A stretch of DNA of 64,000 bases from assembly GCA_022844475.1 (NCBI GenBank), contig JALHLR010000013.1, forward strand, positions 1 to 64,000. The letters run 5' to 3'. The translations under genes and the position numbers were made by a program. Each line of letters starts with the position of its first letter. The first letter of the stretch is position 1. The notes below the pieces were generated by a model. That model saw only the letters and a program-made list of their open reading frames with translations, was not told where the DNA came from and did no database searches. This document shows, one piece after another, positions 10,301-60,257 of this stretch. The stretch comes from Hyphomonadaceae bacterium. Lineage in GTDB: Bacteria > Pseudomonadota > Alphaproteobacteria > Caulobacterales > Hyphomonadaceae.

Positions 10301-11401
10301 TTAGTTCTTCGCTTTGCCAGGCTTTGTCGCCGAAACCTTCTTCGCCGCGTCGGCCGCTTCCTGAGCTTCGATCACGCGTGCTCCGGCGAGAATGCCCGGC
10401 AGGGCATGGTTGCCTTCGTGGCAGGCATATTCGAACAGCGGGTTGCCGAGCGGGTTCATTTCGTACTCACCGCCCCAAGCCTTGTCCCACATCGTCGGGT
10501 CTTCGATCGTGAAGGCGTAGTGGAGCCTGTCCTCGGCCACGCGCGTGAAACGCTCTGTGACCTTGAGGTTCTCCCACGAGCCTGCAAATTGCTGCGAGCG
10601 CGGGATATGAGTGGTTTCCACCACGAGCGTGTCGCCATCCCACCGGCCGATCGAATCGCCGAAATAGGGACGTACGTTGTCGGTGCGGTGCTTGGAGTTC
10701 AGCCGAACGATGCGTGCATCATGGTTCATCTCCACTGTGATCACCACGTGATCCGGTGACTGCACAAACTGGTAGTTGTTGTTGTAGAACCCGTTCGCCA
10801 GCATGGGCGGGCCGCCATTGCGACCGAACGAGACGATGCAGCGCTCGCCCGCGGACCTGCGCTCATAGGAATCGAACGAATTCGATCCGGCCGGGTTCTG
10901 TGGCGCAGGCGATGTGGCGACACCAGCCTTGCGCGGCGGGAACTGGCCGTTTTCGGTCGTGAGGATCGATGTGCGACCCACTCCGCCAACGCGCATCACA
11001 TGGTTGCCGGGATCGAGCCACCCGCGATTGTATCCGCCAACTTCGCCGCCGGCGGCTGCGAATTCCGGACGTGTGGCAGTCGACGGCGCCTCGTAGGTGG
11101 CCGGCGCGTTCGGATCGGTGGGGGCATCACCCTCAGCAATTTCAATCTCGACCAGTGCTTCGAGCTTGGCGACCTCTTCCTCGGTATACGTCAGACCCGT
11201 CGTGCCAGCCCGGCGCGTGAGGGGCGTCAGCGATGCGTTCGACCAGACGCCCTGAAGGTCCGGCTGGCCGAAGGCAGTGCGCGGGGCCTTATAGCCATCC
11301 TTGACCACCGGCGTTCCGGCCGGGACAGGCGTGGTCTGGGCGTAGGCAAGCCCTGATGTGGCCAATGCCGTACCAAGGGCGAGGACAAGGGCAAATTTCA
11401 C
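10301..11401 (-). CDS. Secreted protein of unknown family (GDTLVVET family, copy 1)
   Basis: A 366-residue exported protein with a clean signal peptide (MKFALVLALGTALATSGLAYA). I do not recognise a named domain. It is the longest of four related proteins in this window (others at 41163, 48024 and 59373). Shared landmarks in order are FGQPDLQGVW after the signal peptide, GERC in the middle, YNNNYQFVQSPDHVVI, GRWDGDTLVVETTH, ERFTRV, FTIEDP and, near the end, YACHEGNHALPGIL. The lone Cys, His and Glu of the last motif and the central Cys could bind a metal or form a disulfide; this is inference. The C-terminal tail is Lys/Ala-rich. GGGAG lies nine bases before the ATG. A hairpin terminator follows. 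Confidence 0.85.
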   Translation of the reverse strand: MKFALVLALGTALATSGLAYAQTTPVPAGTPVVKDGYKAPRTAFGQPDLQGVWSNASLTPLTRRAGTTGLTYTEEEVAKLEALVEIEIAEGDAPTDPNAPATYEAPSTATRPEFAAAGGEVGGYNRGWLDPGNHVMRVGGVGRTSILTTENGQFPPRKAGVATSPAPQNPAGSNSFDSYERRSAGERCIVSFGRNGGPPMLANGFYNNNYQFVQSPDHVVITVEMNHDARIVRLNSKHRTDNVRPYFGDSIGRWDGDTLVVETTHIPRSQQFAGSWENLKVTERFTRVAEDRLHYAFTIEDPTMWDKAWGGEYEMNPLGNPLFEYACHEGNHALPGILAGARVIEAQEAADAAKKVSATKPGKAKN

Positions 11402-11490
11402 GGGCGTCTCCCTATCTGACCGCTCTTCCGCGGCGTTAAGGGTCTTCTAGGACTGATACTGGCGACACCGCAATGAGACAGAACCTCCCG

Positions 11491-11519
11491 AGCGGTCACA
11501 GGTCAGCGACCGCTTGACT
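11491..11519 (+). promoter_or_regulatory. Inverted repeat and -35-like element upstream of rpsD
   Basis: AGCGGTC (11491-11497) and GACCGCT (11508-11514) are a perfect 7-bp inverted repeat that abuts TTGACT (11514-11519), a good -35 hexamer. The expected -10 position holds only TCTTTC, so the promoter assignment is tentative. It lies 136 bases before the rpsD ATG, leaving room for a long leader. Confidence 0.3.
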
Positions 11520-11654
11520 TTGGACCCGCAATCCTGTCTTTCCGCGGCTTGCCGACCCCTGCAAGGGCCGGACATTACGGATTGGTGCGCCGCCGCCGTT
11601 GCAATCGTGGGAGCCACAGTGGCCCCGCCGGAGCGCGCCGAAATTGAGGTTACC

Positions 11655-44160: not shown

Positions 44161-44979
44161 TCAGCTGAAGCCGATCCACCGTCCACCAGCCGCCGTTGCG
44201 ACCCAGCTCAGGATTGAGAGCATAGCGATCAACCGCGCGACACGCCCGCCGGGCGTTGCATCCTGCTTGTAGATTTCGAAACTCGTGAGCCCAACGAACA
44301 GCAGGCCCGCAATCCAGCTTGCGGCAATGCTCCAGGTCTGGAGAGCCATGTTTTCGCTCGCGAAGCCGTCGATCCAGTAGCTGATCAGGACCGAGCCAAA
44401 CAGGAGGACAAACGCTCCAAGCGCGATCCAGCGCGTACGCGTGCCGAAGATGAACAGCACCGCATAGGCCGCAGCGATGATGTAGAATGTGCCGGGGTTC
44501 AGGCCGTCGCCAGTTGCGAATACACCCATGGCGAGCAGGAACAAGGCGATGGCGAAAGCGCCCAGATACATGGTGTTCTTGCCGATCTGCCCGTCGGCCT
44601 TTGCGATCGCGTTGACAACGCCGAAGGTGAAGATCAGCGCGGCGATCATCGAGACCATCTTCACGAAGAAAGCGGCCGACGTGTAGAGCCGCTCGGCGTT
44701 CAGTCCCCCGATCACAAGGCCGGTGCCGATTACGATGGCCGCGCCGACGATGTGCCAGAGGCGCAGGTTGCGTTCGATGGTCGACGGCGTCTCGTCGGTG
44801 AGACCCGCCCCGAGCAGGCGCAGGTTCATGACGATCACGCAGCCGCCCAGCAGCGCGAGCCCGACCAGGTGGATAGCTCCGAATGGCGCATAAAGGTCGC
44901 CGATATAGGAGAAGGGCGGTGTCTTGCCGATGTTGGCGACGAAATCGGCTGCGCCGGGGAAGAGTTGTGAGAAGGTCAT
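44161..44979 (-). CDS. Polytopic membrane protein, DUF6644-like (B)
   Basis: A 272-residue inner-membrane protein with about seven hydrophobic helices. The N-terminal half shares a pattern with the gene just upstream: FGAIHLVGLALLGGCVIVMNLRLLG here against EGTHVLTLMFFAGTIWIIDLRMMG there, followed in both by a G-rich helix and a KM-containing helix (FFVKMVSMIAALIF against FRLKMIFLLIAVI). I associate this with DUF6644. The conserved His in helix 1 and others (LRLWHIVGAA) could ligate heme b, as in cytochrome b-like proteins; that is inference. Three bases separate it from the upstream gene, so the pair is one operon, ending in a strong terminator. Confidence 0.75.
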   Translation of the reverse strand: MTFSQLFPGAADFVANIGKTPPFSYIGDLYAPFGAIHLVGLALLGGCVIVMNLRLLGAGLTDETPSTIERNLRLWHIVGAAIVIGTGLVIGGLNAERLYTSAAFFVKMVSMIAALIFTFGVVNAIAKADGQIGKNTMYLGAFAIALFLLAMGVFATGDGLNPGTFYIIAAAYAVLFIFGTRTRWIALGAFVLLFGSVLISYWIDGFASENMALQTWSIAASWIAGLLFVGLTSFEIYKQDATPGGRVARLIAMLSILSWVATAAGGRWIGFS

Positions 44980-45840: not shown

Positions 45841-45868
45841 TAGAGCCTTGATATGGATCAAGGCTCTA
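45841..45868 (-). promoter_or_regulatory. FNR/FixK-type box inside a 12-bp inverted repeat
   Basis: TAGAGCCTTGAT (45841-45852), ATGG, ATCAAGGCTCTA (45857-45868) is a perfect 12-bp inverted repeat. Its core TTGAT-ATGG-ATCAA (45848-45861) is an exact match to the FNR/FixK consensus TTGATN4ATCAA. It is centred about 65 bases upstream of the ATG of the membrane gene at 45789, so a site at -41.5 would give a leader of about 24 bases. It also overlaps the stop codon of the cytochrome gene (45866-45868), and the repeat could fold as an RNA hairpin there. Confidence 0.7.
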
Positions 45869-46426
45869 CTGGTTAGGTGGCGGCGGTCCGCCCGGCATGG
45901 GTCTCAATGTCGTATCGGGCTGGCCCATGTCGCCTGCAACATAGCGATTATGGCAGGCGACGCACGCCTGATACATGTCGGAACCCGCATAAAAGAAGGC
46001 GACCTTGTCCCTCGCCAGGGCGGCTGCCTGTGCTTTCATGGAGGCCTCATAGAGCATGTGAGTGGCATCGACCCACGCTCGGTCATCGTCGAGCGGCCGG
46101 CCAGGGAGGAGAAGCAGGTTTGTCGCCTCTGCAATCGAAAACGCAGCGCTTTCAGCTGCGAGCCAGCCGTCATCGTCGGCCGGGAACAGCTCCTGCACCG
46201 TGTCGCCGATGATCCAGCCCTGACGATGCCAGACGCCGAAGGCGTTGTAGTCGATCACATGGGCCATAAGGTCGGCCATCGAGATGTCTGTGCGGAAATC
46301 GGCCATCGTGGCGCCGCCCATGCCTTCGACAGCGGCGCCGGTCGGCGTCGACGTCGCGGGTGCAGATTGCGGCGAACAGGCGCCAAGGAATAGCGCTGCA
46401 ACGAGCGCCGTGGACGAACGGATCAT
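45866..46426 (-). CDS. c-type cytochrome lipoprotein (C-terminal CxxCH)
   Basis: A 186-residue predicted lipoprotein: MIRSSTALVAALFLGAC with lipobox LGAC (Cys17). Near the C-terminus is one heme c site, CVACH at 155-159, after a mainly helical body. Four helices with a C-terminal heme motif recall cytochrome c'/c556. WHRQGWIIGDTVQELFP and ATHMLYEASMKAQAAALA are helical segments. The heme faces the periplasm. The ATG at 46426 is chosen because GGGGAG precedes it and the lipobox follows. It lies directly upstream of the two DUF6644-like genes in the same direction, a likely electron partner. Confidence 0.85.
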   Translation of the reverse strand: MIRSSTALVAALFLGACSPQSAPATSTPTGAAVEGMGGATMADFRTDISMADLMAHVIDYNAFGVWHRQGWIIGDTVQELFPADDDGWLAAESAAFSIAEATNLLLLPGRPLDDDRAWVDATHMLYEASMKAQAAALARDKVAFFYAGSDMYQACVACHNRYVAGDMGQPDTTLRPMPGGPPPPNQ

Positions 46427-46665
46427 CACCACTCCCCTCGGGCGCTGCGGCCTGGACGGCATATTCGCCTGTCTCGACCAACTGCGCGATTGTTCCTCCG
46501 ACGGCAAACTAGACCGCCATGTGACGCTGCGCCATGGGCTAGGTGTCGCACGCCTTGGTAATTCAACGCCTCAGGTTGACTATGTCCGTCGTTGCTGCGG
46601 GTCTTTCCAGCAGCGCCGGAATGGCTGTAGAGCCTAGGGAAATAGCCCGTCCAGACAGGACGGCT

Positions 46666-46682
46666 AAGGAGGGAAAAACGTG
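46666..46682 (+). promoter_or_regulatory. Ribosome site fixing a GTG start
   Basis: AAGGAGGG (46666-46673) lies six bases before GTG (46680-46682). An ATG at 46692 would be 18 bases away, which favours the GTG. A small hairpin, CCGTCC-AGACA-GGACGG (46648-46664), precedes it. Confidence 0.7.
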
Positions 46683-47948
46683 TTCAACCTAATGTCCCGT
46701 CGCGGCATGATTGCCGCAAGTGCAGCATTGATGCTCGCGGCCTCCGCCGCCTGCCAGTCCATCCCTGCAACTGTCGATCCATCGACCTCCTCGATCGTGC
46801 CGGGCGACGCGGCTTCGCTGGGCTTCGATCCGGCCAAGCTGGATGCAATCCGGACGGCGCTGAACGCCGACGTGCAGAGTGGCAAGATTCCCGGAGCGTA
46901 CCTGATGATCGGCCGGAAGGGCCAGGTCGCGTTCCAGCAGGGTTTCGGCGTCCAGGGCCCCGGCCAGACCACGCCGATGTCCGACGAAACCATCTTCCGC
47001 ATCTTTTCGATGACCAAGCCTGTCGTTGCCGTCACGGCGATGACGTTGGTTGAGGAGGGCAAGCTCAATCTCGACGCGCCGGTCTCCGACTACCTCCCGG
47101 CGTTCAAGGACATCAAGGTCTGGCAGAAGGACGGCGATCCGGTCCCGGCCACGAAGCCGATGCTTATCCGTCACCTGATGAGCCACACGTCGGGGATCAT
47201 CTACTCCTTCATCCAGCCTCAGCTGCCGATCTCCAGGGCCTGGGTCGCCGGCGGCGAGCAGCGTCAGGATCTCACGGCGAAGGACTGGTCGGAGCAGGTT
47301 GTCGCCAAGCTGCCGATGGCAGCCGAACCGGGCGCAGCCTGGAACTACAGCCAGGGCCTCGATGTTCTTGGCGGGGTAATCGAGAAGATTACCGGGCAGA
47401 CGCTCGAACAGGCTATCCGAGAGCGCGTCACCGGCCCGCTCGGCATGACCGACACCGGCTTCATCCAGCCCAAGGACAAGGCTCCTCGCTTCGCCCAGTC
47501 GCAGAAGCAGGATGCGCTGTACTACGACTACACAATGGACCGGGTCCTCTTCGCGGGCGGCGGCGGCCTGTCGTCGACGGCTGAGGACTACCTGCGCTTC
47601 GTCCACATGCTGGCCAATGACGGCGAATATCGCGGCGTACGCATCCTCAAGCCGGAAACTGTCGATCTGATGATGATTGACCAGACCACTGCGGAAGTTC
47701 GCGGCAAGGGCCTGTTCTTTCCGGGCGCCGGCATGGGCTTCGGCCTTGGCGTGTCGCTGGTGATCGACGACACGAAGACAAAGACCACCGGCAACGGCAC
47801 GTTCTCTTGGAACGGCATCGCCGGCACCGAATGGTGGTACGACCCGAAGAACGATGTCTTCATGGTCTTCCTGATCCAGGACCGCGCGCTTCTCTCGGAA
47901 TACCAGAGGAAGAACCGCACCTGGATCTACGACGCGCTGAAGAAGTAG
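46680..47948 (+). CDS. Exported serine hydrolase, class C beta-lactamase fold (EstB/penicillin-binding-like)
   Basis: A 422-residue protein starting at GTG. Signal SRRGMIAASAALMLAASAAC has paired arginines and ends in a cysteine (possible Tat lipoprotein). The catalytic SxxK is in FRIFSMTKPVVAVT (Ser and Lys near 102-105). The second motif reads WNYSQGLDVLG, Tyr-Ser-Gln where beta-lactamases have Tyr-x-Asn. The third region FSWNGIAGTEWWYDPK lacks the KTG triad and has WNG-AG. This pattern suits an esterase or D-aminopeptidase-type enzyme rather than a true beta-lactamase. Divergent from the cytochrome lipoprotein gene, convergent with a secreted-family gene. Confidence 0.88.
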   Translation: MFNLMSRRGMIAASAALMLAASAACQSIPATVDPSTSSIVPGDAASLGFDPAKLDAIRTALNADVQSGKIPGAYLMIGRKGQVAFQQGFGVQGPGQTTPMSDETIFRIFSMTKPVVAVTAMTLVEEGKLNLDAPVSDYLPAFKDIKVWQKDGDPVPATKPMLIRHLMSHTSGIIYSFIQPQLPISRAWVAGGEQRQDLTAKDWSEQVVAKLPMAAEPGAAWNYSQGLDVLGGVIEKITGQTLEQAIRERVTGPLGMTDTGFIQPKDKAPRFAQSQKQDALYYDYTMDRVLFAGGGGLSSTAEDYLRFVHMLANDGEYRGVRILKPETVDLMMIDQTTAEVRGKGLFFPGAGMGFGLGVSLVIDDTKTKTTGNGTFSWNGIAGTEWWYDPKNDVFMVFLIQDRALLSEYQRKNRTWIYDALKK

Positions 47949-48023: not shown

Positions 48024-49016
48024 TCAGTTGCTCGCCACTCGCGCATCCGCCATTCGCTGCCCCAACAGGATGTTGGGCAGCGAATGATTGTGCTCGTGGC
48101 AGGGCGAGGCGAACATGCCCGTATCCGACGCCTTGAACGAGAACTCTGCGAGCCACGGTTCGGAATAGGCGACCGGGTCCTCGATTGTGAACTGGTAAAG
48201 CAGCTCGCTCGTCGACAGGCGCGTGTAGCGTTCGATGATCCGCGCGTCTTCGTTGATGACGAACTTGGTGAACAGTCCTCGCACCCGCTCCTCCGGCGGC
48301 GTCCGGATCGTGTCGATCACCAGTGTGTCGCCCTCCCAACGTGCGATGGACTCGCCATACCAGGAGCGTGGACCCGCCGCGCCATGTTGGCTGGCGAAGG
48401 GGATGATCCGCGCTTCATCGCCGTTCTCGTTGTGGATCACCACATGCATCGGCGTCTGGATGATGCGCTGGCGGTTGTATGAGATCACGGCGTGGATCGG
48501 CGGCACTCCGCTTACCACGAGACAGCGTTCGCCTGCTGGCCGTTGCTCGTAGTCATCCTTCGGTCCGTCCATGATGTCCGCGTCCTTGGCGATCCGTCGC
48601 GCATCCTCCGTGAGCGGCAACTTTCCGTTCGCCGGAAGCACGATCAGCCGTGTGCGCCTTTCGCCGCGCACGACAGGCAGCCCGTCCGTCTCGCCCATGA
48701 TCACATGAGCCTCCGGGTCGATGCTCTCCTCGAGAAAAGGCTGCATGCCCGCGTATGTCGTCGCCACGATGCGGCGCGCTTCGTCCTCGGGCACGATGAG
48801 GTTCGGGTTCATCGGCGACGCTTCAAACACCGGGAAGTAATTCGTCGCCCAGACGACATTCTGGAAATCCGGCTTGCCATCAGGCATTCGCGGGATTTTC
48901 TCCATCGGCGCGAGGGAGGTCGGCGACATGGCAAAGGGATCTGTCGAGGAGGTCTGCGCCATTGCGATGGGCGCGCAGGCGATGGTTGCGGCAATCAGGA
49001 AGGGGAGGCGTATCAT
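48024..49016 (-). CDS. Secreted protein of unknown family (GDTLVVET family, copy 3)
   Basis: A 330-residue exported protein: signal MIRLPFLIAATIACAPIAMA ending AQ. Family landmarks are MPDGKPDFQNVVW near the start, GERCLV in the middle, YNRQRIIQTPMHVVIH, then ARWEGDTLVIDTIR, ERYTRL, YQFTIEDP and SPCHEHNHSLPNILLGQR at the end. The terminal Cys-His-Glu-His-Asn cluster is the most His-rich of the four. The ATG at 49016 has GAGGGA upstream. Divergent from the AraC regulator at 49168, which may control it. Confidence 0.85.
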   Translation of the reverse strand: MIRLPFLIAATIACAPIAMAQTSSTDPFAMSPTSLAPMEKIPRMPDGKPDFQNVVWATNYFPVFEASPMNPNLIVPEDEARRIVATTYAGMQPFLEESIDPEAHVIMGETDGLPVVRGERRTRLIVLPANGKLPLTEDARRIAKDADIMDGPKDDYEQRPAGERCLVVSGVPPIHAVISYNRQRIIQTPMHVVIHNENGDEARIIPFASQHGAAGPRSWYGESIARWEGDTLVIDTIRTPPEERVRGLFTKFVINEDARIIERYTRLSTSELLYQFTIEDPVAYSEPWLAEFSFKASDTGMFASPCHEHNHSLPNILLGQRMADARVASN

Positions 49017-49045: not shown

Positions 49046-49084
49046 CCATTCATCGTGGGTTGGCCGTGAGTGCGACATGAATGG
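49046..49084. promoter_or_regulatory. Inverted repeat between divergent genes
   Basis: CCATTCAT (49046-49053) and ATGAATGG (49077-49084) are perfect 8-bp arms 23 bases apart in the spacer between the copy-3 secreted gene (minus) and the AraC gene (plus). A possible operator for the AraC protein; AraC sites are often direct repeats, so this is tentative. Confidence 0.3.
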
Positions 49085-49167
49085 ATGTGCAGCGGCGAGC
49101 GGTTCGTCGTGATCGGGGACGACAAAACCATGATCGCAGGTTGCAGGTGGACAGAACGGTGCCAGCG

Positions 49168-50181
49168 ATGGAAGCCCTGACCGTCGGCGCCGGCCTCGCA
49201 CGCGGCCTAGTCGCCATCGCCGTGAAGAAGGGCGCGCGCGCCGAAGACCTCGCCGAGCGGGCGGGCGTCAGCCTTGCGGACCTGCAGGACCAGGACAGCC
49301 GCATCGCCATGCCGAACTACATCGCGCTGATGTGCGCGGCGAAGGAGCTGACGGGCGATTCCGCAATCGCCCTTCACTATGGTGAAGAGGTCGACCTGGG
49401 CGAGTTGTCGATCACCGGCCTGATCATGAATGCGTCCGAGACGATGGGTGACGCCTTCGTCCAGATGAATCGCTTCGGCCGCCTCGCCATCGAGGTGGAA
49501 GGCGTCGCGGCAGGCGCAAACCGCTTCCGCCACGTGGCCGATGCGCGTGGCGTCTGGCTGGTCGATGACCGCGCCAATCCAAACGCCTTTCCAGAACTCA
49601 CCGAAGTGACCTTCGCACGCATGTGCTGCCACCCGCGCCGCTTCCTGCCGCGCCCGCACTTTCTCGAAGTGCACGTCACCCACCCGGAGCCGCCGCACCG
49701 CTTCGAATACGATCGCATCTTCCAGTGCCCCGTCGTGTTCAACGCTGAGTGGAACGCCTGGCGGGGCGATCCCGAGCTGGCGGGCCACCGCATCCAGTTG
49801 CATTCGAAATACGTCTTCGGCGTCCTGAGCGAGAAGGCCGAAGCGCTGCTGAAGGAGCTGGAGACATCCAGGTCAACGCGTGGCCGCGTCGAGAGCCTGC
49901 TGATGCCCATTCTTCACACCGGCGATATCGGCATGGATGCCATCGCGGTGAAGATGGCGGTCAGCCGGCAGACGTTGTTCCGCCGCCTCAAGGCGGAGGA
50001 GGCGACCTTCGAGAAGGTGCTCGATGACCTTCGCCATCGCCTGTCGCTCCACTATCTCAGCGGACGCAAGACGTCGGTGAACGAGACCGCCTATCTCGTC
50101 GGCTTCTCGGACCCGGCGGCGTTCTCGCGCGCATTCAAGCGCTGGACCGGCAAGAGCCCCAGCGAGATGCGCGGCAAGTAG
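49168..50181 (+). CDS. AraC family transcriptional regulator
   Basis: A 337-residue regulator. The N-terminal 200 residues (AGLARGLVAIAVKKGARAEDLAERAGV...LTGDSAIALHYGEEV) match the arabinose-binding-like AraC_binding_2 type seen in OruR/ArgR-like regulators. The C-terminal tandem helix-turn-helix (about 245-335) includes DIGMDAIAVKMAVSRQTLFRRLK and VNETAYLVGFSDPAAFSRAFKRWTGKSPSE, the AraC signature. The ATG at 49168 is preferred since the frame upstream lacks similarity; the ribosome site is weak. It diverges from the copy-3 secreted gene and converges on the RND pump, either of which it might control. Confidence 0.9.
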   Translation: MEALTVGAGLARGLVAIAVKKGARAEDLAERAGVSLADLQDQDSRIAMPNYIALMCAAKELTGDSAIALHYGEEVDLGELSITGLIMNASETMGDAFVQMNRFGRLAIEVEGVAAGANRFRHVADARGVWLVDDRANPNAFPELTEVTFARMCCHPRRFLPRPHFLEVHVTHPEPPHRFEYDRIFQCPVVFNAEWNAWRGDPELAGHRIQLHSKYVFGVLSEKAEALLKELETSRSTRGRVESLLMPILHTGDIGMDAIAVKMAVSRQTLFRRLKAEEATFEKVLDDLRHRLSLHYLSGRKTSVNETAYLVGFSDPAAFSRAFKRWTGKSPSEMRGK

Positions 50182-50190: not shown

Positions 50191-53100
50191 TTACTCCGCA
50201 GGTGCAACCTGAGCAGGCGTCGACAGCTCTTCCTTCGCAAGCTTGCGCTCCACGTCGCGGGGCGAGCCCGTGCGGCGAGCCAGCAGCGCGTAGGCGGCCG
50301 GCACGAGAACAAGCGTGACGAGCATCGCCGCGATGACGCCGAACAGGATCACGACGCCGATGGCCGAACGCGTTTCCGAGCCTGCGCCATGGCTGAAGAT
50401 CAGCGGGATGGCGCCGGCGACGGCGGTGAGCGAGGTCATGACGATCGGGCGGAAGCGGGTGAGAGCGGCTTCCTTGAGCGCGGCGTTGAACTCCTTGCCC
50501 TCGTCACGCAGCTGGTTTGCGAACTCGACGATCAGAATGCCGTTCTTTGCGGCCAGTCCCACAAGCATGATCAGGCCAATCTGCGTGTAGATGTTCAGCG
50601 TGTTGCCTGTCAGCCAGATGCCAAGCAGGCCGCCGCCGACCGTCACTGGCACACAAAGCATGATGACGAACGGGTGGATCCAGCTCTCGAACTGTGCTGC
50701 GAGCACGAGGAAGACGACGAGGATGCCGAAGGCGAACACGAACAGGATCGATGATCCCGCCCGCTTGTAGTCAAGCGACTGGCCCTTGTAGTCGATCGTC
50801 GCCTCTTCCGGCAGCACATTGCGGGCGATGGCTTCCATCTTGTCCAGCGCAACGCCAAGCGACACGCCGGGGTTGAGCGTCGCGTCGATCGTGATTGCGC
50901 GCACACGGTTGTAGCGGTTGAGGCGCCGCGAGTCGGCCATCTGTTCGACAGTCACCAGGTTGGACAGCGGGATCAGCTGTTGCGTGCGCGAGGAGCGGAC
51001 ATAGATGTTCTCCATGTCCGATGGCGTCGCCTGTTCGGTGCGCTCGCCCTCGAAGATCACGTAACGCTCTTCACCGTTCTGGATGAAGGTGCCGACGCGC
51101 TTGGATCCCAGCATGGTCTGCAGCGTCGAGCCGATCTCCTGCACCGTCACGCCGAGATCGGAGGCGCGGTTGTAGTCGACGTTTACGCGGAACTGCTGCT
51201 GGGTTTCCTTGTAGTCCCAGTCGATCTGGCCGATGCCGGGGTTCTGGGCGTTCAGCGCGGTCAGGAATGTGTCGCGCCATTCGACCAGCGTCTCGTAGGA
51301 TGGCCCCTTGAGCACGAACTGGATCGGCTTGCCGCCGCCGCCGCCACGCCCGAACGCCGAAGACATGTTCGCAAAGGCGCGCACGCCCGGGATGTCCGAG
51401 AGCTGGCGGTTGATGTCATTGATGATCAGGAAGCCGTTGCGGCGATATCCCCACTCAGACAGAACCACCTGGATTGAGCCGGAGTTGAAGCCGCCCCCGC
51501 CGGGCCCGAATCCGCCCGGTGCGCGCACGGAAATCCGCTCGATCTCGCCCTTGTCGATCATCGGCAGGAGGCGTGCCTCGATCTGCTCGACGAACGGGAC
51601 CATGTATTCGTAGGACGCGCCCTCGGGTCCCGTGATCATCACCTGGAACGAGCCGCGATCTTCCTGTGGCGTGTACTCGCCGGGGATGGTGACGAACAGG
51701 AAGTAGGTCCCGACCAGAGCGCCGAAGAAGCCCACGGCGATGATGATAGGACGCTTCACGGTCGAGTCGTAGATGCCGCCATAGAAGCGGCGCAGCCCAG
51801 CGAACGCCTGGTCGACGCGGTAGGCAAAGCCTTTTTTCTGCTTCTCGCCGCCATCATGGCGGGGGCTGAGCAGCTTCGAGGCCATCATTGGCGAGATGGT
51901 CAGCGCGACCAGCATCGAGAAGGCGATCGCCGCCGCCATGGCGATGGCGAATTCCGAGAACAGCCGGCCCATCTGGCCCTGCATGAAGGTGATCGGCACG
52001 AACACGGCGATGAGCACCATCGTCGTCGCGACAACGGCGAAGCCCACCTGGCGCGTTCCGCGGTAGGCGGCGACCAGAGGCGTCTCGCCATGCTCCTCGA
52101 TCCTGCGGTGGATGTTCTCGAGCACCACGATCGCGTCATCCACGACCAGGCCGATGGCCAGGACGAGCGCCAGAAGGGTCAGCATGTTGATCGACAGGCC
52201 GAGGGCGACCAGCACCATGAAAGACGCGATCAGGGAGATCGGAACCGTAACGGCCGGGATAATCGTGGCCTTGAACGAGCCAAGGAACATGTAGATCACG
52301 CCGACGACCAGCAGCACCGCGATGCCGAGCGTGATGAACACCTCGTTGATTGCGGCGTTCACGAAGACGGAGCCGTCGAAGTTCACTTCCAGCTTCATGT
52401 CTTCGGGCAGGGTCGCGCCGACTTCGAGGGCGCGTTCGCGTGCGACGCGCGCAACTTCCACAACGTTGGCGGTCGATTGCTTGACGATGCCGATGCCGAC
52501 CGTATCGCGACCATTGCCACGGAAGATCGAGCGATCCTCTTCGGCGCCGAACTCGACACGGGCGACGTCGCTCAACCGGACGACCACGCCGTCATCGCCC
52601 TTGGCGACAACAAGCTGGCCGAACTGTTCCGGCGTACGGAAGGGTCGCTCTGTCCGCATCGTGAAGATCAGGTCCTGGGATGTCAGCGAGCCTGCGGGCG
52701 TCTCGACGTTCTCTGTCCGGACGGCGCGTTCGATATCACCCACGGTGAGCCCGCGCGCCGCTATGGCCCGGCGGTCAAGCCAGACGCGCATGGCGGGCGT
52801 TCGCTGCCCGCCGATCTGGATGCGTGCGACGCCGTCGATGGAGGAGAAACGGTCGACCAGATAACGTTCGGCATAGTCAGTCAGCTCGAGCGCCGTGCGC
52901 TTGTCCGACGACATCTGCAGCCAGAGGACGATCTCTTCGGAGGCGTCCGCCTTCTGCACGTCTGGCGGATCGGCCTCTTCCGGCAACTGTCGCAGTACGC
53001 CGCCGACGCGGTCGCGTACATCGTTGGCGGCGCTGTCCATGTCGCGGGAAATGTCGAACTCGATCGCGATGGCTGACTGGCCATCCTGGCTGGACGAGTT

Positions 53101-53340
53101 GATGAAACGGATGCCTTCGACGCCGGCGATGCGGTCCTCGATCACTTCCGTGATGCGGGATTCAACGACGTTGGCGGATGCACCAGGATAGGTCGTGCGG
53201 ATCGAGACGATCGGCGGGTCGATGTCGGGGTATTCGCGCAGGGCAAGGCGCGTGAACGCCACCGCGCCCATGGCGATCAGCAAGAGGCCGATGACGGTCG
53301 CGAAGACCGGGCGCTTGATGGAAACGTCCGAAAGTAGCAT
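50191..53340 (-). CDS. RND efflux transporter, inner-membrane permease (HAE1 family)
   Basis: Proton-driven multidrug efflux permease of 1049 residues, the usual AcrB/MexB length. The N-terminus MLLSDVSIKRPVFATVIGLLLIAMG and LVVDDAIVVLENIHRR (TM4, with the paired Asp of the proton relay) are diagnostic. So are FVPITFMQGQMGRLF and LGIWLTGNTLNIYTQIGLIMLVGLAAKNGILIVEFA. Twelve membrane helices and two large periplasmic loops are visible. The C-terminus is acidic/basic mixed (LAKEELSTPAQ). It follows its adaptor gene by 18 bases; no outer-membrane TolC-type gene is present here. Confidence 0.96.
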   Translation of the reverse strand: MLLSDVSIKRPVFATVIGLLLIAMGAVAFTRLALREYPDIDPPIVSIRTTYPGASANVVESRITEVIEDRIAGVEGIRFINSSSQDGQSAIAIEFDISRDMDSAANDVRDRVGGVLRQLPEEADPPDVQKADASEEIVLWLQMSSDKRTALELTDYAERYLVDRFSSIDGVARIQIGGQRTPAMRVWLDRRAIAARGLTVGDIERAVRTENVETPAGSLTSQDLIFTMRTERPFRTPEQFGQLVVAKGDDGVVVRLSDVARVEFGAEEDRSIFRGNGRDTVGIGIVKQSTANVVEVARVARERALEVGATLPEDMKLEVNFDGSVFVNAAINEVFITLGIAVLLVVGVIYMFLGSFKATIIPAVTVPISLIASFMVLVALGLSINMLTLLALVLAIGLVVDDAIVVLENIHRRIEEHGETPLVAAYRGTRQVGFAVVATTMVLIAVFVPITFMQGQMGRLFSEFAIAMAAAIAFSMLVALTISPMMASKLLSPRHDGGEKQKKGFAYRVDQAFAGLRRFYGGIYDSTVKRPIIIAVGFFGALVGTYFLFVTIPGEYTPQEDRGSFQVMITGPEGASYEYMVPFVEQIEARLLPMIDKGEIERISVRAPGGFGPGGGGFNSGSIQVVLSEWGYRRNGFLIINDINRQLSDIPGVRAFANMSSAFGRGGGGGKPIQFVLKGPSYETLVEWRDTFLTALNAQNPGIGQIDWDYKETQQQFRVNVDYNRASDLGVTVQEIGSTLQTMLGSKRVGTFIQNGEERYVIFEGERTEQATPSDMENIYVRSSRTQQLIPLSNLVTVEQMADSRRLNRYNRVRAITIDATLNPGVSLGVALDKMEAIARNVLPEEATIDYKGQSLDYKRAGSSILFVFAFGILVVFLVLAAQFESWIHPFVIMLCVPVTVGGGLLGIWLTGNTLNIYTQIGLIMLVGLAAKNGILIVEFANQLRDEGKEFNAALKEAALTRFRPIVMTSLTAVAGAIPLIFSHGAGSETRSAIGVVILFGVIAAMLVTLVLVPAAYALLARRTGSPRDVERKLAKEELSTPAQVAPAE

Positions 53341-53358
53341 GGCGCTGATCTCCAGACG

Positions 53359-54561
53359 CTATTGATCGAGTCCGGTCTTGTCGGACGATCCCGGGCCTGT
53401 CGCCATCTGTCCGGCGACAGCGCCGCTCCCGGCTGGACGGACCATGACCGCGCTGCCGGGGCGCACCTTGAGGACGCCGTCCGTCACGACGACGTCGCCA
53501 GACTTGAGGCCCGCAAGGACTTCCACCGTTCCACGCTCGCGCGTACCGAGCGTCACTTCCGTCTTCACGGTCTTGGCTGGCTGCTGCGACTGGTCGACGA
53601 CGTAGACAAAGTTCTTCGAGCCCTCGGCGATCACGGATATTTCGGAGACTGCAAGCGAGGTCCGCGGCTTCGAGACGAGCTGCACGCTCATCGACGAACC
53701 AGCCTTCAGCGCGCCATCCGTGTTCGGCAGCGTGGCCCGGACCTTGACTGCGAGGGTGACCGGGTCGATCGCATTGTCGATCGAAGTAAGCTTGCCCACG
53801 AAAGTGCGGCCGGGGATGTCCTTGGTAACAGCGTTGATTTCGAGGCCGGGACGAAGATCGGCGAGGTATATCGAAGGCACGCCGAATTCGAGGCGCATCT
53901 GGCTATCATCAATCAGTGTCGCGACCGCCTGGCCAGGCGACACATAAGCGCCCATGCTGATCTGCCGGAAACCGAGCACACCGGAGAATGGCGCTACCAA
54001 CACCCGGTCCCGCAACCGCGCCTGCACTGCGCCGACGTTGGCCGAGGCGGCTTCGTAGGAGGATCTTGTTCGTTCGAGCTCCAGTTCGGCCACAGCCTCG
54101 GCGGAGGCGAGGCGCTCATTGCGCTCGAAAACCAGCTTTGCGTTGGCCTCGGCCGCCTTGGCCGATGCGAGCTGGCTCTGCTCTTCCTCGTTGACGAGGG
54201 TGACCAGTACCTTGCCCCTGGTGACGCGCTGGCCGTCCTCGAAGAAAATCCCCGTAACGCGATCGGCTGCGTTGGCTGTCAGGATGACGCGTTCGCGCGG
54301 TTCAAGCGTGCCCAGTGCTTCGATGCGGGAGGAGAAGACACGGGCTTCTGTGACAACCGCCTCGACCTGTGTCGGCGGGCCGCCGCGTCCACCGCCGGGA
54401 CCGCCCGGACCACCGCCGGGTCCAACCGGACGACCGCCGGCCATTTGTGGCGCGCCTTTGCTGTCGCCGCCGCTGTTCAGCGCCGCATAACCGATGCCGC
54501 CGACGACGAGTACACCCGCCGCGACCGCGCCAATGATGATCTGCTTCCTGGTCAGCGCCAT
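53359..54561 (-). CDS. RND efflux periplasmic adaptor (membrane fusion protein)
   Basis: Adaptor of 400 residues linking the RND permease to an outer-membrane channel. The N-terminal membrane anchor (QIIIGAVAAGVLVVGGIGYAAL) is followed by an unusual Gly/Pro-rich stretch (MAGGRPVGPGGGPGGPGGG, residues 40-60). The lipoyl half-motifs, hairpin (QLASAKAAEANAKLVFERNERLASAEAV) and beta-barrel (VKVRATLPNTDGALKAGSSMSV) come next. First gene of the two-gene efflux operon. No regulator gene is adjacent on this side; the large TonB receptor is divergent. Confidence 0.93.
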   Translation of the reverse strand: MALTRKQIIIGAVAAGVLVVGGIGYAALNSGGDSKGAPQMAGGRPVGPGGGPGGPGGGRGGPPTQVEAVVTEARVFSSRIEALGTLEPRERVILTANAADRVTGIFFEDGQRVTRGKVLVTLVNEEEQSQLASAKAAEANAKLVFERNERLASAEAVAELELERTRSSYEAASANVGAVQARLRDRVLVAPFSGVLGFRQISMGAYVSPGQAVATLIDDSQMRLEFGVPSIYLADLRPGLEINAVTKDIPGRTFVGKLTSIDNAIDPVTLAVKVRATLPNTDGALKAGSSMSVQLVSKPRTSLAVSEISVIAEGSKNFVYVVDQSQQPAKTVKTEVTLGTRERGTVEVLAGLKSGDVVVTDGVLKVRPGSAVMVRPAGSGAVAGQMATGPGSSDKTGLDQ

Positions 54562-55006: not shown

Positions 55007-58000
55007 ATGCGCTTAGCGCCTGGTGGACTTGCAGCCCGTTGCATTCTGATGACGTCGACCGCGCTGGCGGTGGCAGGCGTCGGCTGGGCCCAGGAGCAGC
55101 CGCCCGCAGATGATTCCGATGGAGGCGACAGGGTCGTTATCGTTGGCTCGCAGATCGTCGGCGCCCGGCCAACCGACGCCTTGCCGGTAACTGTCATCGG
55201 CGAGGAGGAGCTGGACGCTATCGGGGCGAGTTCCGGGGATGAACTGTTCCGCTCTATCCCCCAGCTGGGCGATGTCGGGTTCAACAGCGCCAGCGGCGTC
55301 AACAATGTCGGAGGGGTTAACGCAGCGCGGGGCGATACGGCATCGATCAACCTTCGCGCACTCGGCACCGGGAATACACTCGTGCTGTTGAACGGGCGGC
55401 GGATGGTCAACCATCCGGGAACGCAGGCCGAGAATCTGGTGCCGGTCGTCACAGTCAACGCCAACGCCATTCCCACCAGTGGCGTAAGCCGGATCGAAGT
55501 CCTGCTGGACGGCGCCTCGGCGCTGTACGGGGCCGATGCGGTCGCGGGCGTGGTCAATACGGTGCTGAAGGATGACATCGAAGGTTTCACCCTCGACCTG
55601 ACCTATGGCAGCGAAGACGGCGCATCGGCTGACGATTTTGCCGCGTCCTGGGAGCTGGGCGTCCAGTCGGATGATGGCGCCACGCGCCTGTCGCTGCTGG
55701 GCTCATATTTCACGCGCGATCCTGTCTTCGCAGGCGATCGCGATTTCTCCGCCAATGCAGACCTGCGCTCGCGCCTGCCAGCCGATTGGGCGGCGAATAC
55801 GACGGTAGCGGGACAGTTCGACAACCGCACCGCCACGACGGCGTGGGGCGGCTTTGACCGTTTCAGCACCGGCAACATCACGGTGGGCGGCGTGCCCGTG
55901 ACCGACGCGAGCGGTCGGTTCCACACCCAGCCCAACACACTGCCCGGATGCAGGGTGCAGCTTGGCAATGGTGTCTGCATTGACAACAATCTCTGGACCC
56001 TGGCGCCGGCCGATCCGGTGAGCCCGCAATTTCCGAGTGGACAGATTACGGACGTGACCAACGGGTCAACGCGCGATGCCGCGCTTCGTTACAACACGAA
56101 TGCGGCGACGACGGTCAGCAACGGCGTCGATCGCTACAACCTGTTCGCCTTCTTCAATCATGACCTTGGCGAGAGTCTGGAACTGTTCGCCGAAGCGGGC
56201 GTGTACCTCGCCGATTCGGTCGGCTATCGCGAACAGACCGCGATGCTGGCTGCCGTGCCTATCGTGATTCCGGCCAGCAATTACTGGAACCCGTTCGGAC
56301 CCGTGGGCTCGCCGAATCGGCTGGCCAATACCAACGCGCCGGCGCAGGGCCTCGACATAACGCTTACAGCCTACCGGCCGATCGATGCCGGCCCGCGCAA
56401 GACCGAAGTCGAGAACCTGACGACGCGCGTGCTCGGCGGACTGCGCGGCGATGTCGCCGGGTGGGACTGGGAATCGGCTCTGCTCTATTCCGAAGCCACC
56501 ACAGAAGATCGCGAGAATCGCGTCTCCAACACCCTGTTCCAGCAGGCGCTCGCGCTTGCGACGCCGGATGCCTACAATCCCTTCAACGGGGGATGCGTCG
56601 ATGATGTCTCGGCAGGCGACTGCACGCCAAATCCGCCAGGCGTGATCAGCTCTTTCGTCGTTCCCTCATTCCGCCGCAGTGGTACGTCGCTCGCCACATG
56701 GGACGTCAAGGTCTCGAGGCCGGACCTTTTCACGCTGTGGGCCGGCGATGTCGGAGCGGCCTTCGGGATCGAGGCGCGCCGCGAGTCCTTCTACGACGAT
56801 CGCGATCCGCGGCAGGACGGGACCATCCTGTTCGACGATATCATCGGCACGGGTCCGCTGACCAACGACCTGCAGGGCAACAACCAGTCGCTCGACACGC
56901 GCGGCAGCCGCACGGTGCAGTCGGCCTATGCGGAGATTCAGGTTCCGCTCGTGTCTGAGAGCATGGGCATTCCGCTTGCTCAGACCGTCGACATGCAGCT
57001 CGCCGTTCGCCACGAAAACTTCGATACGTTCGGCGATGTCACCAAGCCGAAGGTGGCGCTGTCCTGGCGGCCGTTCGACTTCCTGATGTTCCGATCGGCA
57101 TGGTCCGAAGGTTTCCGCGCGCCCAACCTGCAGCAACAATTCGAGAGTGGTCTCCAGCGATCCAACAACCGGTTCGATCTGATTCGCTGCGAGGCTGCTG
57201 TCCGGCAGGGACGGATCGCCAGCTTCACGACATCCTGCCCGACCGTGCCAGGCGTGCAGCAGTCGGTTACATCAAGCCGGCAAGGCAGCGCTGACCTCGA
57301 ACCCGAGGAGTCCACCAACCTCACCTATGGCGCGGTCTTCGAGACGACCTTCATTCCCGAAGAGTGGGGCAATCTGACCTTCACCGCCGACTGGTGGCGT
57401 GTGGAGCAGGAGAACGTTATCGGCATCTTCGGCGACGACAACCAGATCCTGCTCGACTACGTCCTGCGCCTCAATGGCGGATCGAACCCAGCCGTCGTCC
57501 GTGCGGCCCCGATCGCGGATGACATTGCGGAATTCGCAGGCACGCGCATCGATCCGGTTGGTGAGATCCAGTTCGTCAACGACAACTACCTGAACCTCGA
57601 CACACGCCAGGTCGAAGGTTGGGACTTCGGGCTCTACTATGAACTGAACAGCACGCCCGCCGGCGACTTTGCCTTCCGCGCCAATGCGGCCTATCTCGAC
57701 ACATTCTTCCAGGATGTTTCGGGGAACGGTGCGCTGATCAACGCTGCGGCGGCTGCCGGCGCTATTCCGGTCGCACTCGAAGTCGACGGGCAGGGTGAGC
57801 TGGTGCGCGATTTCGGCCGGCCGGAATGGCGCTATTCGGCGTCGCTGACCTGGCGTCTGAATGAGTTTGGCGCCGGCTGGTTCACGTCCTACGTGGGCGA
57901 CGTCTATGACGACTCCAACCTGCTGAACGGCCAGCCATGGATCATCGACGAGTACCAAACGCACAATCTCTATGTGCAGTACGAGCTTGGATATGACAGC

Positions 58001-58144
58001 GATGCGCCGACTCGCCTCCGCTTTGGCGTTCGCAATCTCACCGATGAAGCGCCGCCGCTGGCCGACACCACGTTCGGCTTCCTCGGTGACCTGCACAGCG
58101 CGCAGGGCCGGTATGTCTATCTGAATGTGCGGAAGACGTTTTGA
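55007..58144 (+). CDS. Large TonB-dependent outer-membrane receptor
   Basis: A 1045-residue receptor. The signal peptide (CILMTSTALAVAGVGWAQ) is followed by a TonB-box-like DRVVIVGSQI (about 42-51). The plug domain contains TVIGEEELDAIGA, ASINLRALGTGNTLVLLNGR and ISRIEVL-type elements (SRIEVLLDGASALYGADA). The long barrel ends YVYLNVRKTF with the C-terminal Phe. Length and plug style fit receptors for large or complex ligands (oligosaccharides, peptides) in Caulobacterales and sphingomonads; substrate unknown. AGGGGAT precedes the ATG. Divergent from the efflux operon. Confidence 0.92.
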   Translation: MRLAPGGLAARCILMTSTALAVAGVGWAQEQPPADDSDGGDRVVIVGSQIVGARPTDALPVTVIGEEELDAIGASSGDELFRSIPQLGDVGFNSASGVNNVGGVNAARGDTASINLRALGTGNTLVLLNGRRMVNHPGTQAENLVPVVTVNANAIPTSGVSRIEVLLDGASALYGADAVAGVVNTVLKDDIEGFTLDLTYGSEDGASADDFAASWELGVQSDDGATRLSLLGSYFTRDPVFAGDRDFSANADLRSRLPADWAANTTVAGQFDNRTATTAWGGFDRFSTGNITVGGVPVTDASGRFHTQPNTLPGCRVQLGNGVCIDNNLWTLAPADPVSPQFPSGQITDVTNGSTRDAALRYNTNAATTVSNGVDRYNLFAFFNHDLGESLELFAEAGVYLADSVGYREQTAMLAAVPIVIPASNYWNPFGPVGSPNRLANTNAPAQGLDITLTAYRPIDAGPRKTEVENLTTRVLGGLRGDVAGWDWESALLYSEATTEDRENRVSNTLFQQALALATPDAYNPFNGGCVDDVSAGDCTPNPPGVISSFVVPSFRRSGTSLATWDVKVSRPDLFTLWAGDVGAAFGIEARRESFYDDRDPRQDGTILFDDIIGTGPLTNDLQGNNQSLDTRGSRTVQSAYAEIQVPLVSESMGIPLAQTVDMQLAVRHENFDTFGDVTKPKVALSWRPFDFLMFRSAWSEGFRAPNLQQQFESGLQRSNNRFDLIRCEAAVRQGRIASFTTSCPTVPGVQQSVTSSRQGSADLEPEESTNLTYGAVFETTFIPEEWGNLTFTADWWRVEQENVIGIFGDDNQILLDYVLRLNGGSNPAVVRAAPIADDIAEFAGTRIDPVGEIQFVNDNYLNLDTRQVEGWDFGLYYELNSTPAGDFAFRANAAYLDTFFQDVSGNGALINAAAAAGAIPVALEVDGQGELVRDFGRPEWRYSASLTWRLNEFGAGWFTSYVGDVYDDSNLLNGQPWIIDEYQTHNLYVQYELGYDSDAPTRLRFGVRNLTDEAPPLADTTFGFLGDLHSAQGRYVYLNVRKTF

Positions 58145-58148: not shown

Positions 58149-58179
58149 GTGAGCCCGAGCCAAGTGTGGCCGGGCTCAC
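58149..58179. terminator. Hairpin terminator between convergent genes
   Basis: GTGAGCCCG (58149-58157), bulged A, GCCA, loop AGTG, TGGC, CGGGCTCAC (58171-58179): 13 pairs with one bulge, five bases after the receptor stop and just past the M14 peptidase stop on the other strand. Confidence 0.65.
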
Positions 58180-58182
58180 AGG

Positions 58183-59376
58183 CTAACGCGCGAAATAGTC
58201 GATCATCGCATCTGCCGCCGCGGCCCCGAGCGCGCGTGCGTCTTCCAGCGAGATCTGATCCCATAACTCGACTGTGATGCCTGGCGCCTTCAGCGCTTCG
58301 AGCGCCCAGCCTTTTGATGTGCCGCCAGCGGGGTTGTGCGAATAGCTCCACTCGGGCGGCGCCTTGAGACGCGTGTCGAAGGCCTGCTTGAGCTGCGGCA
58401 GGAAGCCGATCGTGGGCGAAGGCGATTCCAGCGGCGGCGCGTAGATAACGGTGCGGTCGGTAGAGTGAAAATCCATCATCGCGACGACGCGGCGGTCGCC
58501 GGCCTGCGTCACGATCCAGTCGGACAGGGCCTTCGTCTCGGGCTGGGTGAACTGGCCCCAGTCGCGGTTGAGATCAACGCCGCCGGAATTGAGGCGCCAG
58601 TTGCCGCCGTCGACGCCATCTGGGTTCGGCATGGGCGCAAGGATCATGCGGTGGCGGGCGCGGAAGGCGTTGGCCCTGGCGTCGTCGCGCTTCATCAGGC
58701 GCTCGACAAAGCCGCGATAGGCTTCCTGGCCTGTGGTCTCCGGTGGGTGCTGGCGGGTGAGGGCTACGATTACCTCGATGCCCCCGCCGCCAACGAAGCC
58801 GACAAGGTCGCGGCCCTCACGCGAGACGCCGTACTTTGTTTCCGTGAAGCCGCGGCCGGACAGTGAGTTGCGCGTCCAGCCGATGTTATCGCCCGCGGAT
58901 GAGATAGGCTGAGCGGCAATGTAGGTTTCGCCCTGCGACAGGGGAAGTTTGATGGTTGCCCGTGTCTTGCGCTCATTGAGCGCAAGGCTGGCTTCCGGAA
59001 GTTTTTCCCACGCCGCGCCGCCGCGCTTGATCCAGGGGGCGTAGCGATGGGTGTAGTCCGTGTAGTCTAGGGTGATCGTGGCCTCGCGGGGCGTGTCGCT
59101 GTTGAGTTTGAAGGCGTACCAGGGGCTCGGGTTGATGCCTTCGGTCACTGCGGGCTCGTGATCGACCGACACAACGATTGCGCCGCCGGGTGCGATCGCG
59201 CAGTCATGCCGTCCGGCCGCGGGGAAGCTGGTCTCGACGCGAAGGCCGGCGTCCGCGCAGATTGGCGGCGGGCCCAGCGAGGGCAGGCTCATCGCCGGCA
59301 GGTTTTCGCACGCGCTCGTCAGCATTGCCGCCAGCCCTGCCGCAGCTCCGAGTCCACCCTGCCACAGCCGGATCAT
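58183..59376 (-). CDS. M14 family zinc carboxypeptidase lipoprotein
   Basis: Predicted periplasmic metallocarboxypeptidase of 397 residues. The signal peptide MIRLWQGGLGAAAGLAAMLTSAC ends in a lipobox Cys. An N-terminal beta domain of about 150 residues precedes the catalytic domain, as in cytosolic carboxypeptidase-like M14 members. Zinc ligands are HPPE (about 210-213) and the His in MMDFHS (about 302). NPDGVDGGNWRLNSGGVDLNRDW carries the substrate-binding Asn-Arg, and TVELWD (about 369) has the catalytic Glu. All key residues are present. Its start overlaps the stop of the copy-4 secreted gene by four bases, so they are co-translated. Confidence 0.9.
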   Translation of the reverse strand: MIRLWQGGLGAAAGLAAMLTSACENLPAMSLPSLGPPPICADAGLRVETSFPAAGRHDCAIAPGGAIVVSVDHEPAVTEGINPSPWYAFKLNSDTPREATITLDYTDYTHRYAPWIKRGGAAWEKLPEASLALNERKTRATIKLPLSQGETYIAAQPISSAGDNIGWTRNSLSGRGFTETKYGVSREGRDLVGFVGGGGIEVIVALTRQHPPETTGQEAYRGFVERLMKRDDARANAFRARHRMILAPMPNPDGVDGGNWRLNSGGVDLNRDWGQFTQPETKALSDWIVTQAGDRRVVAMMDFHSTDRTVIYAPPLESPSPTIGFLPQLKQAFDTRLKAPPEWSYSHNPAGGTSKGWALEALKAPGITVELWDQISLEDARALGAAAADAMIDYFAR

Positions 59377-60257
59377 TCCTCAGCCTCGCGTGTCTGTTCC
59401 GCGAGTCTGTGCCCGAGGAGCTGGTTGGGGAAGGAATAATTCCCTTCGTGGCACGCATACTCGTAGACCGGGCCCGGCATCGCGTTGAACGCAAGTTCAC
59501 CCCGGATCGGCGCGGTGAACACGCCGGGCTCATTGATGTCGAACGAGTAGAGGACCTGTGTGTCGCTTATGCGACGGAAGCGCTCGATGACGGTGATGGT
59601 TTCTGGCGCGCCGCGGAAAGCGAGATTGGGTTTGAAGTTGGTGGTCTCAACCACAAGCGTGTCGCCTTCATAGCGGCCAGTGGAATCGCCCATCCACGGG
59701 CGAATGACATCGTCGCGATGTTTGTCGGTCAGCGGGATTATGCGGGCGTCGTGGATCATCTCGACAAGGATGATCGCGTGGTCCTTTGTCTGGATGATCT
59801 GGTAATTGTTGTTGTAGCCGACCGGCATCATCGGCGGGCCGAGGAGCGAGCCGTAGTCGCGCAGGCAGCGTTCGGCGAGGGTGAAGCTTTCGGGATGGTC
59901 GCCGCGCTGGAAGCCCAGCCCACGTGGATAGGCGGCGAGGCGATCGGCGCGATCCGCCCTGGCGGCGGGTGTCAGGTCAGGCAGCTGGCCGTTTGCGGGC
60001 ACCACGAGGAAGGAGGTACGGTGCTCGGCGCCGATCACCATTTCGTCGAGGGCGGCTTCGGCCTCTTCTGCGGTCATCACCAGGCGGTCGCCGAATTCTG
60101 GATTGCGCTCGAGCGTGGTCGCGGTCGCATGCGTCCAGTAGCCGGAGAGATCGGGCTGGCCGGCGCTGTTGAGCGGCGCGGAGTACGATTGCGCAATCGC
60201 TGCGGGCGTCGCCGCCAGCGCGAGTGCGAAAAGGGTGAGCAGACCCAGCGTCTTCAT
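59373..60257 (-). CDS. Secreted protein of unknown family (GDTLVVET family, copy 4)
   Basis: The shortest copy, 294 residues, with signal MKTLGLLTLFALALAATPAAIA ending AQ. Landmarks: AGQPDLSGYW right after the signal, AERCLR, YNNNYQIIQTKDHAII, HDARIIPL, TGRYEGDTLVVETTN, ERFRRI, FDINEP and YACHEGNYSFPNQLLGHR near the C-terminus. Its spacing is nearly identical to copy 1, which suggests the closest pair. It is translationally coupled (ATGA) to the M14 carboxypeptidase, the only copy with such a clear partner. No ribosome site is evident before the ATG. Confidence 0.85.
   Translation of the reverse strand: MKTLGLLTLFALALAATPAAIAQSYSAPLNSAGQPDLSGYWTHATATTLERNPEFGDRLVMTAEEAEAALDEMVIGAEHRTSFLVVPANGQLPDLTPAARADRADRLAAYPRGLGFQRGDHPESFTLAERCLRDYGSLLGPPMMPVGYNNNYQIIQTKDHAIILVEMIHDARIIPLTDKHRDDVIRPWMGDSTGRYEGDTLVVETTNFKPNLAFRGAPETITVIERFRRISDTQVLYSFDINEPGVFTAPIRGELAFNAMPGPVYEYACHEGNYSFPNQLLGHRLAEQTREAEE

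Follow-up and report, generated by a model that had tools for sequence, protein, structure and literature searches.

The window analysed here, a stretch of 64,000 nucleotides from contig JALHLR010000013.1 of a Hyphomonadaceae bacterium, carries four related genes for exported proteins, copies 1 to 4, which form part of a large family without a name in the databases searched and fall into two old subfamilies, termed types A and B. Copy 1 (10301–11401, minus strand, 366 amino acids), copy 3 (48024–49016, minus strand, 330 amino acids) and copy 4 (59373–60257, minus strand, 294 amino acids) are of type A, and copy 2 (41163–42116, plus strand, 317 amino acids), which has a lipobox-like signal (LGAC), is of type B. 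All four are defined by open reading frames (ORFs), complemented by alignment for copies 1, 2 and 4, by an AlphaFold2 model predicting a barrel for copy 1, by the phylogenetic tree for copy 2 and, for copy 3, by an orthologue at the same end of a conserved gene module in several genomes of the genus. Copy 2 corresponds to an internal start within the ORF 40899–42116, and an alternative start at 49049 is possible for copy 3.

A preliminary description of this DNA, made from the letters alone, had reported the four genes at these positions as paralogues with shared motifs in the same order. The ORFs and a four-way alignment bear this out, with collinear motifs and, in copy 1 numbering, G45, P47, D48, W53, C188, G256-D257-T258, E283-R284, C327 and E329 invariant. 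As a search of the whole genome with the single sequence of copy 2 retrieves copy 3 (E 4e-13), copy 4 (E 1e-9) and copy 1 (E 2e-8), the resemblance of the four copies amounts to homology, far beyond chance. The paralogues are thus real, but four is an undercount, as the source genome (3.17 Mb, 78% complete) holds 21 members: a profile of the four copies gives 22 matches, of which two are the halves of copy 4, and all 21 genes have open frames.

Tandem or recent duplication as the origin of the window copies was considered and rejected, since in a tree of 136 sequences the closest relatives of copies 1, 2 and 4 come from other genomes. Copy 3 pairs in this tree with an old paralogue at a distance of 1.37, copy 2 is separated from every other copy of its own genome by 4.3 substitutions per site or more, and orthologues from the genus, which stand outside the tree, are even closer to the window copies than their tree neighbours.

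A large family with two subfamilies

At a threshold of E 1e-10, 19 of 41 genomes near the source, the own genome included, contain family members, namely all 15 genomes of the genus with 17 to 47 matches each, 3 of 10 other genomes of the family and 1 of 16 other genomes of the order. A scan of named genomes, in which at least 577 of 591 pattern matches proved to encode a relative, extends the distribution; the best 80 loci were kept and derive, mostly from metagenome bins and according to record titles, among others from Phenylobacterium, Hyphomonas, Povalibacter, Steroidobacter, SAR86, Pseudohongiella, Acidobacteria/Thermoanaerobaculia and Gemmatimonadetes. Thirty-five genomes chosen from these loci hold 2 to 62 matches each, counts which are lower bounds (at least) in the richest genomes, where the best candidates alone were scored. 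Plasmid records contain a few remote relatives, all from Novosphingobium and hypothetical wherever annotated.

The absence of a named domain, as noted in the preliminary description, was substantiated, since profile searches of Pfam, NCBIfam and the sequences of the PDB found no relative and no characterized domain. A Pfam scan with the four copies gave no family at E 1, and the 21 members gave at this threshold only DUF5849, Pox_Rif and DUF4748 in one member each (best E 0.13). NCBIfam returned six single-member matches for the 21 members; the best, of copy 4 to the ketosteroid-isomerase family TIGR02096 (E 0.0096, 16 bits versus a cut-off of 97), lies far under its cut-off and was rejected as a chance match. 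Among PDB sequences, profiles of 4, 21 and 19 members matched nothing, and a 100-row profile gave two chance-level matches (E 0.59 and 1.1). In literature searches by accession or motif, the papers among the matches listed are unrelated to the family, and a broad search of the literature gave nothing relevant. With 17 to 47 matches per genome in one genus, up to 62 elsewhere and no Pfam or NCBIfam model, the family represents a large annotation blind spot.

The subdivision into types A and B is apparent from length, terminal motif and phylogeny. Of the 116 family stretches in the best 80 loci, the 98 long ones are of type A and the 18 short ones of type B. Type A, with copies 1, 3 and 4, terminates in C-H-E-x-N, a motif that copy 2 had been thought to have lost. 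Copy 2 retains, however, the second cysteine and the glutamate (K-C-V-E-F), in agreement with the rule C-x-E-F which holds in 19 of 19 type B rows. Its identity is 45–60% to type B rows and 21–27% to 14 type A rows, and the 19 type B sequences form one clade with a support of 1.0. Copy 2 has one or two matches in 13 of 15 genus genomes, the own genome included, among them all 12 with a completeness of at least 90% and a contamination of at most 5%, so that it represents a conserved orthologue rather than a decayed gene. Across the phylum type B is rare (6 of 249 sampled genomes, the own included); among 41 relatives of a Thermoanaerobaculia genome it is present in 24, in 22 of these three to seven times.

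A conserved gene module around type B

The strongest finding is that type B genes reside in a conserved gene module. In the window, copy 2 is followed on the same strand by a gene for a DUF6152 protein (42436–43011, plus strand; PF19649, E 3.8e-21), then, on the opposite strand, by genes for a DUF6644 membrane protein (44161–44979, minus strand; PF20349, E 1.1e-22), a DUF6644-like membrane protein (44983–45789, minus strand; PF20349, E 1.4e-5, with 25.8 bits slightly under the cut-off of 27, and 27 bits in the genome search) and a small cytochrome c'-like protein with one C-terminal CxxCH (45866–46507, minus strand; Cytochrom_C_2 below threshold, E 0.19). A serine hydrolase of the beta-lactamase fold (46680–47948, plus strand; PF00144, E 5.7e-69), which occupies this module end in 8 of 13 genus stretches, and copy 3 follow, such that copies 2 and 3 form opposite ends of the module.

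Conservation was assessed with profiles built in this analysis in three sets of type B loci: 18 of the best 80 loci, which were taken with flanks of up to 6 kb, less at contig ends, 13 loci of the genus and 12 further loci from nine genomes picked through type B. Four of these 12 come from one genome, and one of the four shares its contig with an earlier locus. DUF6152 is encoded in 15 of the 18 loci with type B versus 4 of the 62 without, in 12 of the 13 genus loci, the thirteenth lying near a contig end, and in 11 of the 12 further loci, once on the opposite strand; the adjacency of one copy to a DUF6152-like gene pointed out earlier is therefore not only real but conserved. The DUF6644 pair together with the cytochrome-like gene is found in 6 of 18, 8 of 13 and 4 of 12 type B loci, respectively, and the 12 further loci contain the DUF6644 pair in seven and the cytochrome in five cases. 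Both DUF6152 genes of the own genome are located within 2.5 kb of a family gene.

Gene order and orientation vary among lineages. Within loci found through the 21-member alignment, the type B gene is mostly placed directly upstream of a type A gene, with DUF6152 after it. Two SAR86 loci (L054, L080) show type B, type A, DUF6152, cytochrome and two DUF6644 genes, all co-directional. This gene set recurs in L038 (Acidobacteria) and in L044 and L093 (Gemmatimonadetes), where the cytochrome and the DUF6644 pair are convergent. By record title, the module occurs in three phyla, Pseudomonadota, Acidobacteriota and Gemmatimonadota. On a Novosphingobium plasmid, a remote family member overlaps DUF6152, and a cytochrome-like gene and two DUF6644 genes are close by. 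A degraded type A gene in the window gap 43011–44161, where some relatives carry type A, was sought with 100 queries and rejected, the lowest E value among the matches listed (0.003) not being significant. Directly upstream of copy 2, an FtsX-like permease (38494–41028) is encoded, as in 9 of the 13 genus loci; the profile of this permease had no match in the 18 type B loci or in five further loci.

The partner proteins possess conserved features of their own. Among 42 distinct DUF6152 ORFs, many of which are orthologues of one genus and one of which is truncated, HHxF is present in 39, with an alanine just before it in 37, and NPH in 39; the His-His pair falls at the expected end of the signal peptide (cleavage site judged by eye), accompanied by the further conserved histidine of NPH. 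In the DUF6644 sets, which share members, one histidine, arginine, phenylalanine and lysine are invariant (40 of 40 and 35 of 35). CxxCH is present in 24 of 24 aligned cytochrome sequences, and all six of the cytochrome-like proteins scanned match the haem end of the Cytochrom_C_2 profile (PF01322), having in common with cytochrome c' a small size and a single C-terminal CxxCH. DUF6152 and DUF6644 are named but uncharacterized families, for which the literature search found no paper naming them and no described function of the type B/DUF6152/DUF6644/cytochrome neighbourhood; a search directed at HemJ equally found nothing. By joining these families and a small cytochrome-like protein, the type B branch offers a concrete first handle on them with respect to metal, redox and co-expression.

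Invariant cysteines and predicted fold

Two cysteines, C167 and C306 in mature copy 1 numbering, are invariant throughout the family, being present in 100 of 100 type A rows, 19 of 19 type B rows, all 21 members of the own genome and 12 of 12 further relatives with complete sequences, some of them remote, a thirteenth being a fragment. Exactly two cysteines after residue 25 are found in 20 of the 21 own-genome members, and exactly two in 75 of 100 type A and 14 of 19 type B stretches. Since these exported proteins mostly hold exactly two cysteines, both invariant, the pair likely forms a disulfide, a reading drawn from sequence conservation. E159, R166, E203, R209, E262 and E308 are likewise present in 100 of 100 type A rows, H206 in 97, H307 in 98 and N310 in 97, which renders the motifs C-H-E-x-N and H-D-A-R near-invariant in this subfamily. 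The histidines are less fixed elsewhere: the first motif histidine is replaced by aspartate in copy 3, and neither is present in type B. Three of the 12 complete further relatives, remote type B proteins, carry proline in place of the last glutamate.

The AlphaFold2 model of copy 1 (pLDDT 86.8, pTM 0.84), based on 100 sequences from the window and related loci, predicts eight strands in series (188–296) and a C-terminal helix (308–337). A Foldseek search of the PDB with this model gave 1312 matches, and the 50 listed comprise fatty-acid- and retinoid-binding proteins, monomeric streptavidins and one designed barrel with probabilities of 0.93–1.00. A G-x-W motif in the first strand is a signature of the calycins; at the corresponding position of type A, glycine is present in 98 of 100 rows, and the place of the tryptophan is taken by tryptophan itself in 76, tyrosine in 21, phenylalanine in two and valine in one. 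Lipocalins, fatty-acid-binding proteins, triabin and avidins, which share an up-and-down barrel, are grouped as calycins in the available text of PMC3367933. The predicted meander with its C-terminal helix, the G-x-W-like motif and the PDB matches of copy 1 may link the family to calycins such as fatty-acid-binding proteins, lipocalins and streptavidin, whereas the about twofold size, the long N-terminal part, the invariant cysteine pair, the conserved glutamates and arginines, the lack of detected sequence similarity and a marginal fold score set the family apart. The model of copy 1 speaks well, though not conclusively, for a calycin-type barrel, and the predicted fold is probably a known one.

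Surroundings of the other copies

Divergent from copy 3, an AraC-type regulator is encoded (49081–50181, plus strand; PF12625/PF12833). As the preliminary description had stated, this copy faces the regulator, an arrangement found in 9 of 12 close orthologue loci (61–100% identical, the own included), with the serine hydrolase in 8 of the 12. The coupling of copy 4 to a peptidase holds in part: an M14 peptidase (58183–59376, minus strand; PF00246, E 3.5e-17) adjoins and overlaps copy 4 and is found beside all eight orthologues at least 70% identical, the own included, but it is convergent in three of these eight and absent from all five loci of weaker matches (45–59% identical). A common partner of the own-genome copies was rejected, as few neighbour families recur: among the 25 families listed for 75 neighbour proteins, ranked by members, only TonB receptors (5), a lyase (2), a short-chain dehydrogenase (2) and TetR (2) do so.

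Proposed role and alternative explanations

The reading that we prefer, although we consider its chances evenly balanced, is that of a large family of exported barrel proteins of the envelope, of which type B is fixed in an envelope module for metal or haem redox chemistry. The proteins would adopt a calycin-type up-and-down beta-barrel, in which the invariant disulfide may tie the C-terminal helix to the segment before the barrel. Type B would be a fixed component of the module, which further comprises DUF6152, the pair of DUF6644 membrane proteins, the c'-like cytochrome and, often, type A. A metal, probably copper or nickel, may be held by DUF6152 through its exposed N-terminal His-His, electrons or haem could be moved by the cytochrome and the DUF6644 pair, whose members have one invariant histidine each within a hydrophobic stretch, and the barrel proteins might present or protect a small ligand on which the module acts. 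The many solitary type A copies would be ligand-specific versions, some of which adjoin hydrolases, PQQ dehydrogenases or TonB receptors. Of this reading, the family, its subfamilies, the invariant cysteines and the synteny are observed, the barrel is a model prediction, and the disulfide, the metal, the redox role and the ligand are inferred. We more tentatively propose, and hold to be somewhat doubtful, that DUF6152, the DUF6644 pair, the c'-like cytochrome and type B, in many cases joined by type A, constitute an undescribed envelope metallo-redox system in at least three phyla, from which solitary type A paralogues, with up to about 60 matches per genome, radiated as substrate-specific offshoots.

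Several observations weigh against this envelope redox reading. None of the 1312 Foldseek matches of copy 1 reaches E 0.001 or better (best E 1.4e-3), and the target-normalized TM scores (TMt) of the 50 listed, 0.40–0.53, are mostly below 0.5. The copy 2 model (pLDDT 75.2, 32 input sequences) retrieves thioesterases and lipocalins, among others, at E values of 0.029 or higher, none significant or consistent. About 150 residues separate the G-x-W strand from the strand meander in the copy 1 model, and the searches of Pfam, NCBIfam and PDB sequences found no sequence link to any calycin or other known protein. The glutamates, arginines and histidines conserved in 97 to 100 of 100 type A rows resemble an active or structural site more than a pocket tuned to different ligands. 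The full module is present in 18 of 43 type B loci, though many stretches stop at contig ends, and all six cytochrome-like proteins scanned remain below the curated cut-off of 26.5 bits. Around 20 of the 21 own-genome copies, copy 2 being left out, the two nearest genes per side are mostly of different families, and a coupling to TonB receptors was rejected, with 4 of 26 receptors within 5 kb of a copy where 1.6 are expected (P 0.075).

The same conserved residues would suit an exported enzyme family in which glutamate, arginine and histidine catalyse one type of reaction, such as hydration, isomerization or cleavage of a lipophilic substrate, with paralogues differing in substrate. Enzymes are also recurrent neighbours, as in the best 80 loci a family gene is found within 300 bp in 5 of 10 cases for serine hydrolases, in 3 of 7 for PQQ dehydrogenases and in 5 of 7 for sulfatases, compared with 156 of 648 for all called neighbours; these are small numbers, and the sulfatase loci are not independent because they stem from related acidobacterial bins. 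Type B dispenses, however, with both motif histidines and copy 3 has aspartate at the first, the sequence searches found no enzyme family, and the conserved residues may well be structural, so that we rate an enzymatic function as unlikely. Still less probable is the original suggestion that the two cysteines with histidine or glutamate bind a metal, or that the proteins act as sensors. The near-invariant motifs of type A and the regulator facing copy 3 agree with it, but the invariance of the cysteines, mostly exactly two per exported member, in the face of histidines that are not fixed fits a disulfide better than a metal site. Of the two possibilities offered at the outset, metal or disulfide, the latter is thus likely and a Cys/His/Glu site lacks support. 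Variable neighbour genes, TonB receptors that are not significantly enriched and an M14 peptidase that is convergent in three of eight loci likewise lend no support to sensors or binding proteins adapted to different partners.

Closest to the envelope redox reading is the possibility that the module handles copper or haem in the manner of YcnI–YcnJ or CopC–CopD, the barrel proteins serving as partners that bind a metallophore or haem. DUF6152 resembles YcnI/YcnJ, CopC/CopD, DUF4198 and DUF6702 in being exported with an N-terminal histidine, which binds metal in those proteins and might do so in DUF6152. For DUF4198 and DUF6702, the available text of PMC12537917 describes metal binding by the N-terminal histidine after signal cleavage, and that of PMC12362106 describes the exchange of Cu(II) between YcnI and the CopC domain of YcnJ, the operon of which, as far as this text goes, includes a membrane partner as the module does. 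One DUF6644 protein has in addition matches to DUF2214 (E 0.0011) and UPF0093 (E 0.18). These lie far below the Pfam cut-offs, though, none of the YcnI/YcnJ, CopC/CopD, DUF4198 and DUF6702 families is among the matches in the scans, and no copper regulator or exporter was recognized among the module genes scanned, which makes a dedicated copper or haem system a rather unlikely explanation as well.

Further observations

PQQ dehydrogenase genes are located 30–55 bp from type A or type B genes and co-directional with them in three loci (L052, L068, L092). In five acidobacterial loci (L067, L074, L076, L086, L087), type A is always followed by a sulfatase and preceded by DUF6152 (5 of 5) and, in 4 of 5 cases, by a TonB C-terminal protein; both the sulfatase and the TonB cluster were identified through a single scanned member. 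Between copies 3 and 4, the window encodes an RND efflux pump with its membrane-fusion partner and a TonB-dependent receptor (50191–54561 and 55007–58144).

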